Source: Alphaproteobacteria bacterium
GTDB taxonomy: Bacteria > Pseudomonadota > Alphaproteobacteria > Rhizobiales > Beijerinckiaceae
Reading direction: 5' to 3'
Length of the DNA stretch: 64,000 bases
NCBI GenBank assembly: GCA_016869435.1
Contig: VGEB01000004.1
Location: 1-64,000, forward strand
The notes under the pieces were generated by a model. It was not told the origin of the DNA and searched no databases. It saw only the letters and a program-made list of their open reading frames with translations. Of the stretch, positions 31,067 to 39,680 are shown piece by piece (the stretch's first letter is position 1; every line of letters starts with the position of its first letter). Position numbers and translations under genes: made by a program.

Positions 31067-32203
31067 TCAGACCGGCAGCGAATGTCGCTCAGCCGCACGA
31101 AACGGCGATTCCAGCGCAAGCACGAGCTTGACCAGATCCGCCTGGCGGGTCGCCCCTGTCTTCAGGAAAATGCTTTTGAGATAGCCCTTGACCGTTCCCT
31201 CGCTGAGACCGAGCGCCCGCGCCGTAGCCGGGACGCCGCCGACCTCAGCGATCGCCAGCAGGACCGAGCCTTCACGGGCGGTCAGGCCGAACAGTTTCGC
31301 GGCGACCGCTCCGCCGTCGTCCGCGTTGAGCTGCAGCCGGCGCAGGAACAGCGCCGAGAGCCCGTTCGCCAGCGGCAGCACGTGCATCACGCAGCAGCGC
31401 GACTCTCCGCGCTTCACCATAATGGCGAAGGCTTCGGCGTCGGCGCCGCCGATGCCGGCGAGCGCGCGCTCCAGGGCCTCTTTGGCGCGCGGATCGCGCA
31501 TGGTCAGCGTATCGCCCGCGACCGCGAAGGCGTCGCCTTCATCGAGAATGTCATCGGCGCTGCGATTCTTTTGAACGATACGCATTTTGGCGTCGACCAC
31601 GAGCACGGGCGTCGTCAGTTCGTCGAACAATTCCACCAGCACGGATGGATCTGAAGCCGGCGTGTGACGTGCGATCGCGCTGGCGAGGTGCGGCAATAGC
31701 GCATCGAGGCGCGCCTTCGCCTGTGCGTCCGCCAAGCCAGCGCGCTCATCGCGAAACGCCACGAACAAACAGACGCCTGTCTCGGATCGGTGAATGACGC
31801 CGACGATCACGTCCAAAAGTCCGAATGGCGCCATCCAGCGTTGATAGGCGCCGCTTTGATGAAACGCCTCAAGCGAAACGAAGTCTTCGGAGGAAAACGC
31901 CCGGCCGACGCCGATCTCGGCCAGCACCCGCGCCTTGACCGGATCGAGTTTGCGATGGTTGCGAAGATATTCGGCGATCCACGCCTTCTCAGCGTGCGTC
32001 GAATATTTGAGCTCGAGCAGCGCCGAAACGCGGTCTCCGAACAGGAGCGCCGCGAAGCGCGCATTCAAGACGCGCGCGATTTCGTCTAACGCGTCCGGCC
32101 AGCAGCGTGCGTCGGCGCCAGCAGCTTCGATAGCCGTGACGACGCGAGCGTTCCCATCTTCCCAAACCGTCATCTCTTCACCCGCTGCGACCTCTCGCCA
32201 CAC
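31067..32203 (-). CDS. LuxR-family HTH transcriptional regulator
   Basis: C-terminal LTAREGSVLLAIAEVGGVPATARALGLSEGTVKGYLKSIFLKTGATRQADLVKLVL; large N-terminal region with no recognised domain. Confidence 0.85.
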   Translation of the reverse strand: MWREVAAGEEMTVWEDGNARVVTAIEAAGADARCWPDALDEIARVLNARFAALLFGDRVSALLELKYSTHAEKAWIAEYLRNHRKLDPVKARVLAEIGVGRAFSSEDFVSLEAFHQSGAYQRWMAPFGLLDVIVGVIHRSETGVCLFVAFRDERAGLADAQAKARLDALLPHLASAIARHTPASDPSVLVELFDELTTPVLVVDAKMRIVQKNRSADDILDEGDAFAVAGDTLTMRDPRAKEALERALAGIGGADAEAFAIMVKRGESRCCVMHVLPLANGLSALFLRRLQLNADDGGAVAAKLFGLTAREGSVLLAIAEVGGVPATARALGLSEGTVKGYLKSIFLKTGATRQADLVKLVLALESPFRAAERHSLPV

Positions 32204-32322
32204 CTTCGCAAAGCGGTTTTTGCGATGGCGCGCGCCGCGCGGCGAGAGGTCGACCTGCTCCGAGCCCTCAGAAAAGCCTGCGAAAACTCAAAGGCGTCAC
32301 TTGTTTTCAACTTAACTTCTGT

Positions 32323-32338
32323 GTTGCCCAACTGCAAC
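32323..32338. promoter_or_regulatory. Palindrome GTTGCCCAACTGCAAC upstream of copper-uptake module 1
   Basis: GTTGC-N6-GCAAC, about 102 nt upstream of the 32441 ATG; matched by a copy at 35479. Confidence 0.6.
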
Positions 32339-32440
32339 AATTGAGACGAATTTAGTCAATGGCCATGCTCAACCTCCCGATCGGGGGGAAAGGATGAGAC
32401 TCGCGACAAGTAAATTACAAAAAAGAATCTAGCGACCGCC

Positions 32441-32839
32441 ATGATGACCGAGAACTCAGCAAAGACGCCGACCGCGAACGCGACATGGAAGTGCCTGCGC
32501 GCCCTTGTTGCTGCGACGCTTTTTGTTGTCTCGGCGCTGTTGCAGGCGACGCTCGCGCCGCACGCGGCTTTGTCCGCGACGCTGGCGTTCTGCGTAGACG
32601 ACCACGCGCCGGCGGATCGGGCGGACGAGAAGACGCCCGCAGGCGCGCCAGCGCTCGGTCACTCGCATTGCCGCGCCTGCCCGATCGCGACGCCGCCGTC
32701 CATTCCCGAAAAGCCGCCCATCGCGTGCGTCGCAGCGCCGCCAATCGCGCTCGTCTACTCCGACGGATGGGGTTTCGAACCGCAAGTGCGACGCCGTCCG
32801 GGCGAGACGCGGTCCCGTGCGCCTCCGTTCTTCTCCTGA
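32441..32839 (+). CDS. DUF2946-like small exported protein (module 1)
   Basis: Single N-terminal TM/signal, HSHCRACP (HCxxC), C-terminal RSRAPPFFS, directly upstream of a TonB receptor. Confidence 0.65.
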   Translation: MMTENSAKTPTANATWKCLRALVAATLFVVSALLQATLAPHAALSATLAFCVDDHAPADRADEKTPAGAPALGHSHCRACPIATPPSIPEKPPIACVAAPPIALVYSDGWGFEPQVRRRPGETRSRAPPFFS

Positions 32840-32899
32840 CGAAACAAAAACTCGCATTGTTTCAACCGCCCCTCGCTGGCGGATCAGGAGATCAGTTCC

Positions 32900-35335
32900 A
32901 TGCCCCCTACCGCTCTTCTGCGCGGCGTGAGCGCCTGCGCCCTCATTCTCGCGTCGCTCGCCGTCGCCAAGGCCCAAGTCTCTCTTCCGCAGATCGTGGT
33001 CGGCGCGCAACGCCCTGCCGCGGCGCCAACCACGCCGCCCTTGGAAAAGGCCGGCGACGAGGCTGTCGTCACACAAAGGGAAATCGTGGAGGAGAAACCT
33101 CCTGAAACGGATACAGCGAAGCTTCTCGAACATCAGCCTGGCGTGAGCGTTCAGACCGGCGGCGGCGTTTCCGGCCTGCCTGCAATTCGAGGCCTCGCCG
33201 ATGATCGCCTGAAGATACTCGTGGGCGGCGTGCAGACGACGGCCACCTGCGCCAATCACATGAATTCGCCGCTGAGCTATACCGATCCGAACACGATCGG
33301 CCGGGTTGAGGTGGTGACCGCGGTGTCGTCAGTGAGCAAAGGCGGCGATTCGATCGGCGGCTCAATCCTCGTCACCCCGAAATCGCCGGTCTTTGCGACT
33401 CCTGTGGTCGCTCCAGCAGTCATCGGTCCCGGCGGCGCGCCAGTTTCCCCAATCGTGGCCGCGAGTCCCTACCCCCCCGTTCCCTATCTTCCGCTTCCGG
33501 TTCCAGGCACGGTTCGTTTTGGCCCGAACAATGAGGTGCTGACGACGGGAACCGTCTCGGCGTTCTTCCGCGGCAATAATAATGGCGTCGGCGTAACAGC
33601 CAACATCAATATGGCTAACGACCATTGGAGCCTGCTCTACAACGGGTCCTGGCAACGTGCGACGAACTATCACGCCGGCGGCAATGGCGACAAAGTTCTC
33701 TCAACGAACTTCATGTCTGAGAACCACGCTGTCACGCTCGGCTATCAGAACGAAGGCCATCTCTTCACCTTCCGCGGCGCTTATCAGAACATTCCCTATC
33801 AGGGCTTTCCGAACCAGCGCATGGATATGACGCGGAATCGCTCCTATTCGCTCGACGCGTATTACAAGGGCGCCTACGAGTGGGGCACGCTGGAGGCGCG
33901 CGCCTATTGGCATCAGGTCTTCCACAAGATGGGATTCCTGGAAGACAGGTTCTGGCTCAATCACCCGATGATCGCGCTCGGCCGCGACTTCGGCTATTCC
34001 ATCAAGACGGAAATTCCATACAGCGAGCAGGATCTTTTCCGGATCGGCAATGAGTTCCACGGCTATCGTCTGCAGGACTACTGGCCGTCCGATCTCACCG
34101 GCTTTACCCAGGGGTTCGCGACGCCTCCCGGCAACTTGAGCCGGCCTTTCGCAAATGTGAACATCAATGGCGGCCAGCGCAATCGCTTCGGCACCTACGC
34201 CGAATGGGAGCGCCGCTGGACGACTCAGTGGTCGAGCCTGATCGGCGTGCGCAACGACGTCGTCTGGATGGACACAGGTCCCGGTCAGAGCTACACGCCG
34301 TTTATTTTTCCCACCACGCCGCTGATCGCGCGTGCGAACAACTTGGCCGTCAATATATTCAACGCGCAAAACCGGGCGCGCACCGACGTCAACTTCGACA
34401 TGACCGCTCTGGGGCGCTACGAACCGGAGCCCGGAACCCTTTACGAGTTCGGCTATTCGCGCAAGACGCGCTCGCCCAATCTCTATGAACGCTATACTTG
34501 GCCGATGGCGGGCCCGTTCACCGCGATGTTCAACTGGTTCGGCGACGGCAACGGCTACACTGGCAATCTCAATCTCAAGCCGGAAGTCGCGCACAATGTC
34601 GCATTCACCGGCGCGTGGCGCGACATGTCGGGCGCCAATAATTGGGAAGCGCGGATATCGCCCTTCTATACTTACGTTGAGAATTACATCGACGGCGCCA
34701 GAACCGGCGGGACCTTCAACACGTTCCCCGTGGCGAACTCCTATATTTTCCAGATCATGCAGTTCCGCAATTTCAAGGCGGAGCTGTATGGCGTCGACGG
34801 CTCGGGCAGAGTGAAGCTGCATGAGTCGCCGGAGTATGGCAGGCTGCAGGCGGTCGGCGTCGTCAGTTTCGTCTACGGACGAAATCTCGACATCGGCAAT
34901 CCGCAATATTGTCTGCCCGGCAATGGATTTTGCTCGGTCGCGTCCTTCCTGATCAAGAAAGGCGATGGTCTGTGGAACCTGATGCCGGCCAATGCGCGCA
35001 TCGCGCTTGAGCATCAGCTCGGCGGATTGAGCCTGGCCGCCGAAACGCAGCTTGTCGCGCCCAAGGACCATGTTTCCGCCAACAAGGGCGAATTCACCAC
35101 GCCTGCTTACGCGCTCCTCAATCTGCGCGCCGCCTATGAGTGGAGCAATATGCGGATCGACCTTGGCGTCGACAATCTCACCAATGCGCTCTACTCGCTG
35201 CCGCTTGGCGGATTCGATCTGACGAACTATTCCCGCAACGCGTTCGTCTTCGGACGAAATGTCGGCCTTGCGAGCGTGCGTCAGGTGCCTGGAATGGGCC
35301 GCAACTTTTACGCGGGCCTCACGGTGAAGTTCTGA
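32900..35335 (+). CDS. TonB-dependent receptor, OprC/NosA-like, putative copper receptor (module 1)
   Basis: Signal peptide, plug motifs (KLLEHQPGVSVQTGGGVSGLPAIRGLADDRLKILVGG), C-terminal beta-barrel ending GRNFYAGLTVKF; CANHM (CxxxM) and HKM (HxM). Confidence 0.9.
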   Translation: MPPTALLRGVSACALILASLAVAKAQVSLPQIVVGAQRPAAAPTTPPLEKAGDEAVVTQREIVEEKPPETDTAKLLEHQPGVSVQTGGGVSGLPAIRGLADDRLKILVGGVQTTATCANHMNSPLSYTDPNTIGRVEVVTAVSSVSKGGDSIGGSILVTPKSPVFATPVVAPAVIGPGGAPVSPIVAASPYPPVPYLPLPVPGTVRFGPNNEVLTTGTVSAFFRGNNNGVGVTANINMANDHWSLLYNGSWQRATNYHAGGNGDKVLSTNFMSENHAVTLGYQNEGHLFTFRGAYQNIPYQGFPNQRMDMTRNRSYSLDAYYKGAYEWGTLEARAYWHQVFHKMGFLEDRFWLNHPMIALGRDFGYSIKTEIPYSEQDLFRIGNEFHGYRLQDYWPSDLTGFTQGFATPPGNLSRPFANVNINGGQRNRFGTYAEWERRWTTQWSSLIGVRNDVVWMDTGPGQSYTPFIFPTTPLIARANNLAVNIFNAQNRARTDVNFDMTALGRYEPEPGTLYEFGYSRKTRSPNLYERYTWPMAGPFTAMFNWFGDGNGYTGNLNLKPEVAHNVAFTGAWRDMSGANNWEARISPFYTYVENYIDGARTGGTFNTFPVANSYIFQIMQFRNFKAELYGVDGSGRVKLHESPEYGRLQAVGVVSFVYGRNLDIGNPQYCLPGNGFCSVASFLIKKGDGLWNLMPANARIALEHQLGGLSLAAETQLVAPKDHVSANKGEFTTPAYALLNLRAAYEWSNMRIDLGVDNLTNALYSLPLGGFDLTNYSRNAFVFGRNVGLASVRQVPGMGRNFYAGLTVKF

Positions 35336-35478
35336 TCGCGGCGCGCTAATGTGGAAGGCGGCGCGCCAATGCGCCGCCTCTCATTCTGATGTTCCGATTC
35401 TGCTGCGTCTCGCGCCTGTCGGTTTGCGCCGCGCGCTCGCCGCTTCTCTTCGATGCACGCGCGCGGTGGCGCCATTAT

Positions 35479-35494
35479 GTTGCTCAATTGCAAC
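35479..35494. promoter_or_regulatory. Palindrome GTTGCTCAATTGCAAC upstream of copper-uptake module 2
   Basis: Same GTTGC-N6-GCAAC architecture, about 97 nt upstream of the 35592 ATG. Confidence 0.6.
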
Positions 35495-35591
35495 AAATCC
35501 AATAATTTGCTCAAGAACTGGGCGAGCTCACTTCCGATATCAAAAAAAGATAGTAACAAGTTCGTTACACGGAATTGGATTCTCCAGCGCC

Positions 35592-35972
35592 ATGTCAGCG
35601 AAAGCAGAACGGAAAGACTGCAAGCGAAGCGGCGCCCGCGCTGTCCTCGCATTGGCGCTTTTCTGCCTTTCCGCCGCGTTGCAGGCGACGATCGCGCCGC
35701 GCATGGCGTTCGCGGCGTCAGATGAATTCTGCGTCGATAACGTCGGCGCCGCCGATCCGCAGCCCCCGAGTCAATCGCCGACGCACGCCTCGGACGCGCA
35801 TTGCAGTGTTTGCACGACCGCGGCCGCGCCCATCATCCTCGGTAGACTACCGGTCGCGCGCCTTGAGCGATGGTCGACTGCGCTGGTCTACCTCGACACA
35901 TGGCCTAGCGAAGCGCGAGAACGACGCCGTTCCGGCGAAGCGCGCTCACGCGCGCCCCCCTTTCTCTCCTGA
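35592..35972 (+). CDS. DUF2946-like small exported protein (module 2)
   Basis: N-terminal hydrophobic segment, DAHCSVCTTA (HCxxC), C-terminal RSRAPPFLS; paralog of 32441..32839. Confidence 0.65.
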   Translation: MSAKAERKDCKRSGARAVLALALFCLSAALQATIAPRMAFAASDEFCVDNVGAADPQPPSQSPTHASDAHCSVCTTAAAPIILGRLPVARLERWSTALVYLDTWPSEARERRRSGEARSRAPPFLS

Positions 35973-37437
35973 CGAAACAAGAACTCGCGCTGTTTCAACC
36001 GCCGCTCGCCGCGGTTCAGGAGATCTCATACAATGCAACATACCGCTCTACTGCGCGGCGCAAGCGCCTGCGCGCTGGTTCTCGCGTCGCTCGCAAGCGC
36101 CGAGGCCCAGGTCGCTCTCCCCCAGATCGTCATAGGCGCGCCGCATCGCCCTGCGGCGCCGACCGCGCCGCCACCGACTCCGCCCACGCCGGAAAAGGCC
36201 GGCGACGCGGCCGTGGTCACGCAAAAGGAAATCGACAAGGAAAGGCCCGCTGTCGCCGACACGACGAAGCTCCTCGAAAACACCCCCGGCGTCAGTATGT
36301 ACGAGGCCGGCGGCGTTTCGCGCCTGCCGGCGATTCACGGCATGGCCGACGATCGGCTAAAAATCATCGTGGGCGGCGTGCAGCCGACCGCAGCGTGCGC
36401 CAACCACATGAATCCCCCGCTCTCCTATATTGATCCCAATAACGTGCAGAGAATCGAAGTCTTTTCGGGCGTGATGCCCGTCAGCAGAGGCGGCGATTCG
36501 ATCGGCGGTTCGATCATCGTGACGCCGCGACAGCCCGCCTTCGCGCCGCCCCCAGGCGCGCCGCTGCCGCCGCCCGCCGTGGCGCCGGTTGAACCATTCC
36601 TGCTCGGCTCGCCATACCCGCCGTTCCTGCCCTTTACCGGTCAGGGCTTGCGCTTCGGCAATCAGAACGAGTTGCTTGCGACCGGCGTCGTCTCGGCCTT
36701 CTTCCGTACAAACAATAACGGCATCAGCGTTTCCGGCACGACGAATGTCGCGACCGACCATTGGAGCGTGCTCTACAACGGCGCCTGGTCTCGCGCGACC
36801 GACTATCATCAGGGCGACAACGGACCGAAAGTGCTGTCAACAAATTTTATTTCGGAACAGCACTCGCTCACCGGCGCGTATCAGAATAACGGGCATCTCT
36901 TCACGATCAGGGGCGCTGTAGAGCATATCCCCTATCAGGGATTTCCCAATCAACGCATGGATATGACGGGCAATCGCGGCTACACCGCGGAAGCCAAGTA
37001 TCTGGGAGCCTACGACTGGGGCCTCGTGGACGCGCGCGCCTTTTGGCATCACGTCACCCATACGATGGGCTTCCTCTACGACAAGCAGCCAGCGAACATG
37101 CCGATGAACACCATCGCGCATGATTTCGGCTACTCAATCAAGACTGAGATTCCCTTCACCCAGCTCTCCGGTCACGACTTGTTGCGGCTTGGCAGCGAGT
37201 ACCACGGTTTTCGCCTCAAGGACTGGTGGGAGCCGGTGTACAGCTCGACCATGATGATGATGGGCCCGTTCACCTACTGGAACATCAATAACGGCGACCG
37301 TAATCACGTGGGCCACTATGCGGAGTGGGAGGCCGCTTGGACGCCGCAATGGTCGACGCTTCTCGGCGTGCGCAATGACGTCGTGTGGATGACGACAGGC
37401 AACGCCTATCCTTACGATCCGCGCAGCTCCATTCCAA

Positions 37438-37510
37438 TGGGCATGATGGGCGGCATGGGCGGCGGCATGGGCGGCGGCATGGGCGGCATGGGGATGATGA
37501 TGTACATGGC
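37438..37510 (+). repeat. ATGGGCGGC-type tandem repeat encoding a Met/Gly-rich segment
   Basis: ggcatgatgggcggcatgggcggcggcatgggcggcggcatgggcggcatggggatgatgatg, encoding MGMMGGMGGGMGGGMGGMGMMMYM. Confidence 0.9.
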
Positions 37511-37851
37511 GAACCCCGATGCGACTGCCGCGCAAATCTTCAATGCTCGCAATCACGCCCGCACGGACGTAAATTTTGACATGGTTGCAAGGGCCCGTTA
37601 CCAACCTGACGCCGTCAGCACGTACGAGGTCGGCTATTCGCGCAAGACCCGCTCGCCCAATCTTTATGAGCGGTACGCGTGGGGCGTCGGATCGATGGCG
37701 ACCGCCATGGTCAATTGGTTCGGCGACCTCAACGGCTACACAGGCAATCTCGACCTGAAGCCGGAAGTTGCGCACACGGTTGGCATTGTCGGCTCTTGGA
37801 TCGATCCTGCGGGAAATTGGGAAGCCAGAGTCAATCCGTATTACAGCTATA

Positions 37852-38989
37852 CCCCGACTCATTGGAAAGGCGAAGAAATCGGTTGCCGGCGGGCGGATAA
37901 TGGATTCGTCTAAAGGGCATGATTCGTTCTGGCTATCTTTCGCCCGAGGATCGCGCCGACCTGATCGCCCTTGTGCGTGACGGCTCTGCGGCGCATCGCT
38001 TGGCGCGCCGCGCCAATGCTCTCGTGCTGCTGGATGACGGTTGGAGCTGCGAGCAGGTCGCCGCGGCGCTGTTTGTCGACGATGACACAGTCCGGCGCTG
38101 GCATGCATTGTTTTTGGAGGATGGGCTCGAAGGCTTAACGCGCTTTGATAGCGGCGGCGGCGCCTCGCGCTTGTCGAAGATGCAGGAAGCGGCGCTGACG
38201 TCCTGGATATCTGAAAGCTTACCTCCTTCGACGCGTCAGATTGGCGCGTATATCGAGAAGGAATGCGGTGTCGTTTACGAGAGCCGCTCCGGCCTCATCG
38301 CTCTCCTGCATCGGCTTGGGCTCGAATACAGGAAGCCGGAAGCGATCGGACGCAAGCCTGATGCGGAAAAGCAGAAAGCCTTCATCGAAGCCTACGAGAA
38401 TCTTCTGAACGCGCTTGGCCCTGACGAGGCCGTGATGTTCATGGACGCCGTGCATCCGACGCATGCGACGCGTCCCGCCGGTTGCTGGGCGCCGGCCAAG
38501 GAAAATCTGGCCATTGAGCAAACCAGCGGGCGGCAACGTCTTAATGTTCATGGCGCGATCGACCTCGAGACTGGCAAGACCAGAATGGTCGACGTCGAAA
38601 CCGTCGACGCGGTGTCAACGATCAGGCTTCTGCAAGCGATCGAGTCGATGTATCCGCTGATGGCAATGATCCATGTCTTCCTGGACAATGCACGCTATCA
38701 CCATGCCGTTCTGGTGCAAGAGTGGTTGGCGGAGCCGGGCAGACGCATCAAGTTGCACTTCATTCCCGCTTATTGCCCGCATTTGAACCCGATTGAGCGG
38801 CTATGGGGTGTCATGCACAAGCATCTGACGCACAACAAATGCTACGCCACATACAGGGAGTTCGCCGAAGCGACATTGGGATTTCTACGTGAAACCGTTC
38901 CAATCCGCTGGTTCGAGTTTCGCGATTCCGTCACCGACAACTTCCGCGTCATCGATCCGAAGGATTTTCGGGTTCTGACGTGAACTGGG
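37852..38989 (+). mobile_element. IS630-family insertion element (approximate ends)
   Basis: Surrounds the 37919..38983 transposase; ends CCCCGACTC.../...ACTGGG flanked by TA on both sides; terminal inverted repeats are weak, so ends are provisional. Confidence 0.65.
37919..38983 (+). CDS. IS630-family transposase (DDE)
   Basis: N-terminal HTH (GWSCEQVAAALFVDDDTVRRWHALF), FMDAVHPTH, VFLDNARYHHA, HFIPAYCPHLNPIERLWGVMHK. Confidence 0.93.
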   Translation: MIRSGYLSPEDRADLIALVRDGSAAHRLARRANALVLLDDGWSCEQVAAALFVDDDTVRRWHALFLEDGLEGLTRFDSGGGASRLSKMQEAALTSWISESLPPSTRQIGAYIEKECGVVYESRSGLIALLHRLGLEYRKPEAIGRKPDAEKQKAFIEAYENLLNALGPDEAVMFMDAVHPTHATRPAGCWAPAKENLAIEQTSGRQRLNVHGAIDLETGKTRMVDVETVDAVSTIRLLQAIESMYPLMAMIHVFLDNARYHHAVLVQEWLAEPGRRIKLHFIPAYCPHLNPIERLWGVMHKHLTHNKCYATYREFAEATLGFLRETVPIRWFEFRDSVTDNFRVIDPKDFRVLT

Positions 38990-39680
38990 TATACATCGAA
39001 AATTTCATAGACGCTGATCGCGTGAGCAATCTCTCGGGACCGGCTGGACTCATCTTTCCCATACTACAGTTCCGCAACCATAAAGCGGAAATCTACGGCT
39101 TCGACGTTTCCGGCCGCCTGAAGCTTTGGGAAACGCCAGAATACGGTCTGTTTTCCACCACTGGCTTTATCAGCTACGTCTATGGCAAGGACCTCGACAT
39201 GCCCAATTACACGGCCTGCGGTCTGTCCGGCGCCACATGCTATCTGCTGGCGCAGAACTTCGCCAAGGGAGACGGGCTGTATCATATCATGCCATTGACC
39301 GCGCGCGGCGCCATCGAACACCGTTTGGGCGGATGGACGAGCGCCGTCGAGTTGCAGCTGGTCGACAGCAAGACGCATGTTTCCGTCGCCCGCAACGAAT
39401 TGAAGACGGGCGGGTATGCGCTGGTCAATTTGAGAACCGCCTACGACTGGGGAACGATGCGCTTCGATCTCGCGATCGAAAACCTGTTCGACCAGCTCTA
39501 CTATCCACCCCTCGGTGGCCATTATTTCACTTTGGCGAAGGTCACCAACAATCCACTCACCTACGGGCCGGTGCCGGGGATCGGCCGCAACTTTATCGCC
39601 GGCCTTACGGTTCGGTTTTGACCGCACGCCGCTTCCAGGAGAGACGCGTATGCGCGTCTCTCCTCATTGGAGAGTGTTTT

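Follow-up and report, generated by a model that had tools for sequence, protein, structure and literature searches.

The dyad upstream of two copper-receptor operons is most likely the operator of a putative envelope regulator in Methylocystis

CruR is a copper-responsive leader of the DUF2946 family, encoded in an operon with the CrtA/BfrG receptor of Bordetella pertussis, as described in two reports (PMC9426467 and PMC12914433). The two modules analyzed here, A and B, are paralogs in which a small protein is followed by a TonB receptor, and their leaders match the published motif spacing of CruR: CxxC and RAPP lie 45 residues apart, RAPP lies 3 residues from the end, the leader is first in the operon, and a TonB receptor comes next. 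Compared with those reports, the locus differs in two respects, as leader and receptor are separated by about 60 bp rather than 162 bp, and receptor A is directly followed by module B where the B. pertussis operon has a PepSY gene. A further difference from CruR is that the copies in the window (the whole stretch of DNA analyzed, 64,000 nucleotides) carry an upstream 18-bp dyad that is common to non-copper envelope genes.

For this dyad, a second point of reference is the novel Motif 2 of Methylosinus sporium 5, which a 2025 paper (PMC12403871) places upstream of transcription starts and finds enriched at envelope (COG M) genes. The dyad shares with Motif 2 both the upstream position and the enrichment at envelope genes, whereas Motif 2 is described as lying within 40 nt of the start and the dyad centers fall at about -80 to -100 by the phasing presented below. 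Motif 2 could be the same motif, the two being likened here by description and not by letters; if it is, the motif has already been reported in that paper, with no protein named for it. A literature text search with written-out spellings of the dyad returned no paper, a result that applies to those spellings.

Copper-receptor modules and their upstream dyads

The features of the locus are as follows.

31067..32203, minus strand: divergent regulator with a C-terminal LuxR-type domain (Pfam GerE, 8.1e-06); 20 of the 39 Methylocystis genomes have an ortholog
32322..32339, no strand: dyad A, TGTTGCCCAACTGCAACA; all LuxR orthologs with sufficient sequence in front of the gene have the dyad at this same place (20 of 20, counting the one in the window)
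32373..32388, plus strand: hairpin CCTCCCGATCGGGGGG between dyad A and leader gene A (ortholog alignment; fold z -1.8)
32441..32839, plus strand: CruR-type/DUF2946 leader protein A (DUF2946 0.0022, 19.2 bits, under the cut-off of 23.7)
32900..35335, plus strand: TonB-dependent receptor A with OprC-like plug and CxxxM (Plug domain; OprC 6fok_A, E 3.7e-13, C and M aligned)
35478..35495, no strand: dyad B, TGTTGCTCAATTGCAACA, aligned with dyad A
35592..35972, plus strand: CruR-type leader protein B (DUF2946 5.8e-05, 24.3 bits, over the cut-off of 23.7)
36033..37913, plus strand: TonB-dependent receptor B, N-terminal part with CxxxM, cut by an insertion
37919..38983, plus strand: IS630-family transposase gene inside receptor B (NCBIfam transpos_IS630, 1.6e-60)
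38980..39621, plus strand: receptor B, C-terminal part (Pfam TonB_dep_Rec_b-barrel, 4.4e-09)

The plug aligns with that of OprC from Pseudomonas aeruginosa (6fok) over about 108 residues, with CANHM over CPNRM (CxxxM), and a scan of 22 receptor loci found CxxxM in 16, among them the two window copies. Against TIGR01778, by contrast, the score is 70.9 bits and the curated cut-off 472.45 bits, and the receptors are for this reason named OprC-like and not OprC members. As receptor B (36033-39621) is split by the IS630 insertion, dyad B precedes a broken receptor gene. Between dyad A and its leader gene, the hairpin CCTCCCGATCGGGGGG is retained by most aligned orthologs, where the loop varies and U-G is replaced by U-A; it is absent from module B.

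A preliminary description of this DNA had reported two 16-bp palindromes, at similar distances before the leader genes and in otherwise diverged sequence, and these particulars are borne out. The palindromes lie at 32323-32338 (GTTGCCCAACTGCAAC) and 35479-35494 (GTTGCTCAATTGCAAC), the gaps to the start codons are 102 nt (ATG 32441, module A) and 97 nt (ATG 35592, module B), and the flanks are strongly diverged upstream, with only weak alignment downstream. Each palindrome gains one base per side to give an 18-bp dyad, TGTTGC-N6-GCAACA (TGTTGCyCAAyTGCAACA). Exact GTTGC-N6-GCAAC occurs in the 64-kb window at dyads A and B only, and when up to two mismatches are allowed the window holds no excess (37 found against 37.5 expected). 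The degenerate form TGTKGC-N6-GCMACA, introduced below, is found twice in the window at a spacer of 6 and never at any other spacer from 0 to 14; mononucleotide composition predicts 0.018 per 64 kb.

Recurrence of the dyad and the genes beside it

A first scan of the genus with TGTNNCNCAANTGCAACA, one mismatch allowed, found the motif to be recurrent in Methylocystis. In two orthologous L,D-transpeptidase promoters the dyad sits at the same place in opposite orientation; it thus behaves as a symmetric site, and the symmetric form TGTKGC-N6-GCMACA was consequently adopted. Exact matches to this form number 450 in Methylocystis, spread over 39 of 39 genomes, against 9 for a reversed-pattern control. 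Among 189 genomes of alphaproteobacteria outside the family the corresponding figures are 264 and 121, so that some background exists. Within the family, enrichment is clear in a few other genera, for example g42, with 11, 14, and 14 sites in three genomes; counts in most of the others are close to background. A sequence specific to the modules is present in eight named records, seven of them labeled Methylocystis and one an assembly with no finer label than alphaproteobacterium.

The full-genome scan proposed in the preliminary description, which had named a random scatter of the motif as evidence against an operator, gave 13 exact degenerate sites against 1 for the control, so that the window does not stand alone. 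Twelve of the 13 adjoin outer-membrane, receptor-module, or other exported genes, judged from translations read by eye, and the thirteenth (C49:19408) is near aminotransferase-like and cold-shock-like genes. The narrower 16-mer GTTGC-N6-GCAAC has eight matches in the whole genome against two in the control. Two of these eight, on contig C55, adjoin ParA/RepA- and ParB/RepB-like genes and look like plasmid partition sites of a system distinct from the dyad. Palindromes such as TGTTGCGAGCTCGCAACA at L006, L007, L146, L250, and L267 likewise fit the dyad pattern; several stand beside ParA/RepA- and ParB/RepB-like genes, and they too look like plasmid partition sites.

At the fetched places among the 450 sites, which are those that the annotation covers, the genes downstream of the dyad are mostly TonB receptors, Omp25/OprB-type porins, L,D-transpeptidases, and other exported proteins. 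The fetched places of G149, G150, G151, G114, G089, and G152 likewise have envelope genes, with exceptions that include plasmid partition palindromes and transposase genes; at 15 fetched loci from three genomes of related genera the gene classes are more mixed. Unless a family search is given, these names come from our reading of the translations, and the gene calls behind them are crude, being based on open reading frame length and GC content by codon position.

A simple and likewise crude rule finds a signal-peptide-like product downstream of 66 of the 85 thinned sites that have a called gene, compared with 15 of 57 baseline genes, the baseline coming from loci fetched for other reasons. Random intergenic positions gave a fraction of 0.43, which comes closer to the 0.78 of the sites than the gene baseline does. 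At 21 thinned sites no gene was called with its start 20-420 bp away. Thinning for relatedness was applied to these counts and to those of half-site independence, flanks, and phasing given below. The flank, phasing, and signal-peptide counts exclude nine loci: L006, L007, L146, L250, and L267 as partition-like palindromes or their repeats, L251 and L258 as lying inside transposase genes, and L168 and L245 as judged non-promoter.

Divergent OmpR-type response regulators with the sequence LLDRRLPDGDG, or one close to it, recur beside dyad-bearing receptor modules (L087, L119, L161, L162, L166, and L171, and further L189, L197, L202, L254, L257, and L259).

Symmetry, promoter geometry, and the proposed regulon

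The two halves of the dyad vary independently. With both orientations of 76 thinned sites counted, position 4 and its partner are TA in 42 cases, GC in 38, GA in 36, and TC in 36, which argues for a protein site on DNA and not for an RNA stem. In 11 orthologous omp promoters and 15 aligned module orthologs, the dyad is a conserved block amid diverging promoter sequence; as both sets were chosen via the motif, they show what is conserved nearby and not how often the site is retained. Preference extends outward to RACTGTKGC-N6-GCMACAGTY and is stronger on the gene side of the flank. The earlier suggestion that the palindrome is a plausible operator is thus strengthened and also widened, given its presence in all 39 genomes, the envelope genes at most fetched sites, the conserved block, and the independent halves.

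A second regularity concerns TTGAC downstream of the dyad, computed without reference to gene positions. Across 178 unrelated clusters, 15 of 19 matches at offsets 45-80 from the dyad start fall in 53-56, 64-67, or 74-77, and none falls at 57-63 (jitter p 0.0002, an optimistic value, as these windows were picked on the same data). Variants of the pentamer that stand outside this choice support the phasing in the case of TCGAC (p 0.05) and TTG[CGT]C (p 0.02) and support it in part in the case of TT[TC]AC (p 0.04, with a valley that is not empty); TTGA[AGT] (p 0.35) and [AG]TGAC (p 0.87) do not cluster, and the reverse-strand control is flat (p 0.35). Downstream of the two dyads in the window itself, no TTGAC stands at the phased distances.

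The clusters, one helical turn apart, would fit a site used by a class-I activator. Taking TTGAC as the -35 hexamer would put the center of the dyad at approximately -81, -92, or -102, positions that are typical of class-I activators. CRP, whose class-I sites have TGTGA halves and helical-turn spacing, offers the comparison: the dyad resembles such sites in lying upstream of the promoter, in its one-helical-turn steps, and, if the half is taken as GTKGC, in having 5-bp halves with a 6-bp gap. It differs from them in its half-site letters, which are unlike TGTGA, and in a conserved dyad of 18 bp. The dyad has no -10-like element next to it, which led us to discard a MerR-type placement, in which it would lie between the -35 and -10 elements.

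An A/T-rich tract is found at many loci on the gene side, 24-31 nt from the dyad start; among 68 thinned sites there are 22 GAAA at offsets 20-33, compared with 10 on the far side. It is possibly a contact for the polymerase alpha subunit.

From the distribution and geometry of the sites, we consider it rather likely that the dyads are operators of one dimeric regulator of the envelope or outer membrane across Methylocystis, and probably in some related genera. The binding protein would most likely be an envelope regulator, is probably an activator, and is probably not the neighboring LuxR protein alone. It can be envisaged that one putative trans-acting dimeric protein binds TGTKGC-N6-GCMACA and, most likely, activates transcription from a position upstream of the core promoter, always on one face of the helix relative to RNA polymerase. 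Such a protein would set the transcription of two copper-receptor operons, each with a CruR-type leader and an OprC/CrtA-like receptor, and perhaps also that of the divergent LuxR gene, and the CruR leader peptides would probably sense copper at a later step. Copper control is then probably post-transcriptional, via these leaders, with the dyad as a separate transcriptional input. For the fuller proposal, an undescribed global outer-membrane activator of Methylocystis and its near relatives whose operator links porins, receptors, and cell-wall enzymes with the two copper-receptor operons in the window, where CruR leaders add control by copper, we regard the case as evenly balanced.

Methanotrophs depend on copper, and the regulation of their copper uptake is only partly known. 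If true, the proposal would provide a defined operator, a candidate target list, and a two-layer model of a global activator and a copper-sensing leader, testable in culturable strains of Methylocystis and Methylosinus.

Candidate binding proteins and other explanations

The preliminary description had pointed to the adjacent divergent LuxR-family protein as the obvious candidate to bind the dyad; on such a reading the protein would control both modules and itself. About 119 bp separate its start codon from dyad A. Twenty-one LuxR loci were fetched by protein similarity and not by the motif, one of which is cut by a contig end, and the remaining 20 all have a dyad upstream at a matching place, which is exact in 17 cases and has a single mismatch in 3, the variation falling mostly inside the degenerate positions. 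It follows from this protein-chosen sample that the dyad is kept wherever the LuxR gene is kept, and self-regulation is thus possible. Among genomes at least 90% complete, those with the LuxR gene also have more sites (mean 15.3, 18 genomes) than those without it (mean 9.1, 14 genomes). The sites, however, occur in all 39 genomes of the genus and the LuxR ortholog in 20 of them, so that the motif is not confined to genomes that encode the protein; G149 has no LuxR ortholog and 31 exact sites, and elsewhere the same dyad has a TetR gene, an OmpR-type response regulator, or no regulator as its neighbor. As a general answer the LuxR protein is therefore not supported, and we judge it an unlikely binder across the genus.

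It is also improbable that the dyad is the site of one of the known envelope regulators LdtR, NtrX, ChvI, or CenR. The target gene classes do fit the envelope-control roles given for these proteins in the respective reports (PMC3999280, PMC7240162, PMC9731502, PMC9275681), but the published motifs, compared by eye, differ from the dyad: ATATTCCTTGTATTTTAA for LdtR, TTGC-N3-GCAA for ChvI, TGA-N8-TGA for CenR, and CAA-N2-5-TTG or GCA-N9-TGC for NtrX. As all four motifs come from other genera, a shifted specificity is conceivable. LdtR had been the initial candidate on account of the L,D-transpeptidase sites and was rejected for the mismatch with its published motif.

More doubtful is an explanation in which each module's own divergent regulator, whether of LuxR, TetR, or OmpR type, binds the local copy, the shared sequence having been inherited through duplication of the receptor module. 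A divergent regulator does accompany many receptor modules, and modules A and B are paralogous; this account would nonetheless need three unrelated DNA-binding folds to share a common motif, and the porin and L,D-transpeptidase sites have no such neighboring regulator and have unrelated flanks. An RNA hairpin in leader transcripts is very improbable: TGTTGC-N6-GCAACA could form a 6-bp stem with a 6-nt loop, but 72 of the 152 combinations at position 4 and its partner would mispair and the dyad lies upstream of the phased -35 hexamers.

As regards the identity of the putative envelope regulator, a CRP/FNR-type protein would fit the phasing, and this is only a guess. Four CRP/FNR genes of the genome score above the family cut-off, with no exact or one-mismatch site in the upstream DNA examined; at one CRP/FNR locus a one-mismatch site lies downstream of the gene. 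Sites of TyrR and PpsR resemble TGT-N12-ACA, a pattern that the dyad recalls, and HTH_8 proteins were considered for this reason. They were set aside, the six matches in the genome having no exact or one-mismatch site in the upstream DNA examined.

Further small proteins that combine CxxC with a proline motif at the C terminus are encoded before receptor or sigma-factor genes at L126 (3173-3589), L160 (911-1255, minus strand), and L179 (2134-2634). They are possible extended relatives of CruR, some of them under the DUF2946 cut-off.
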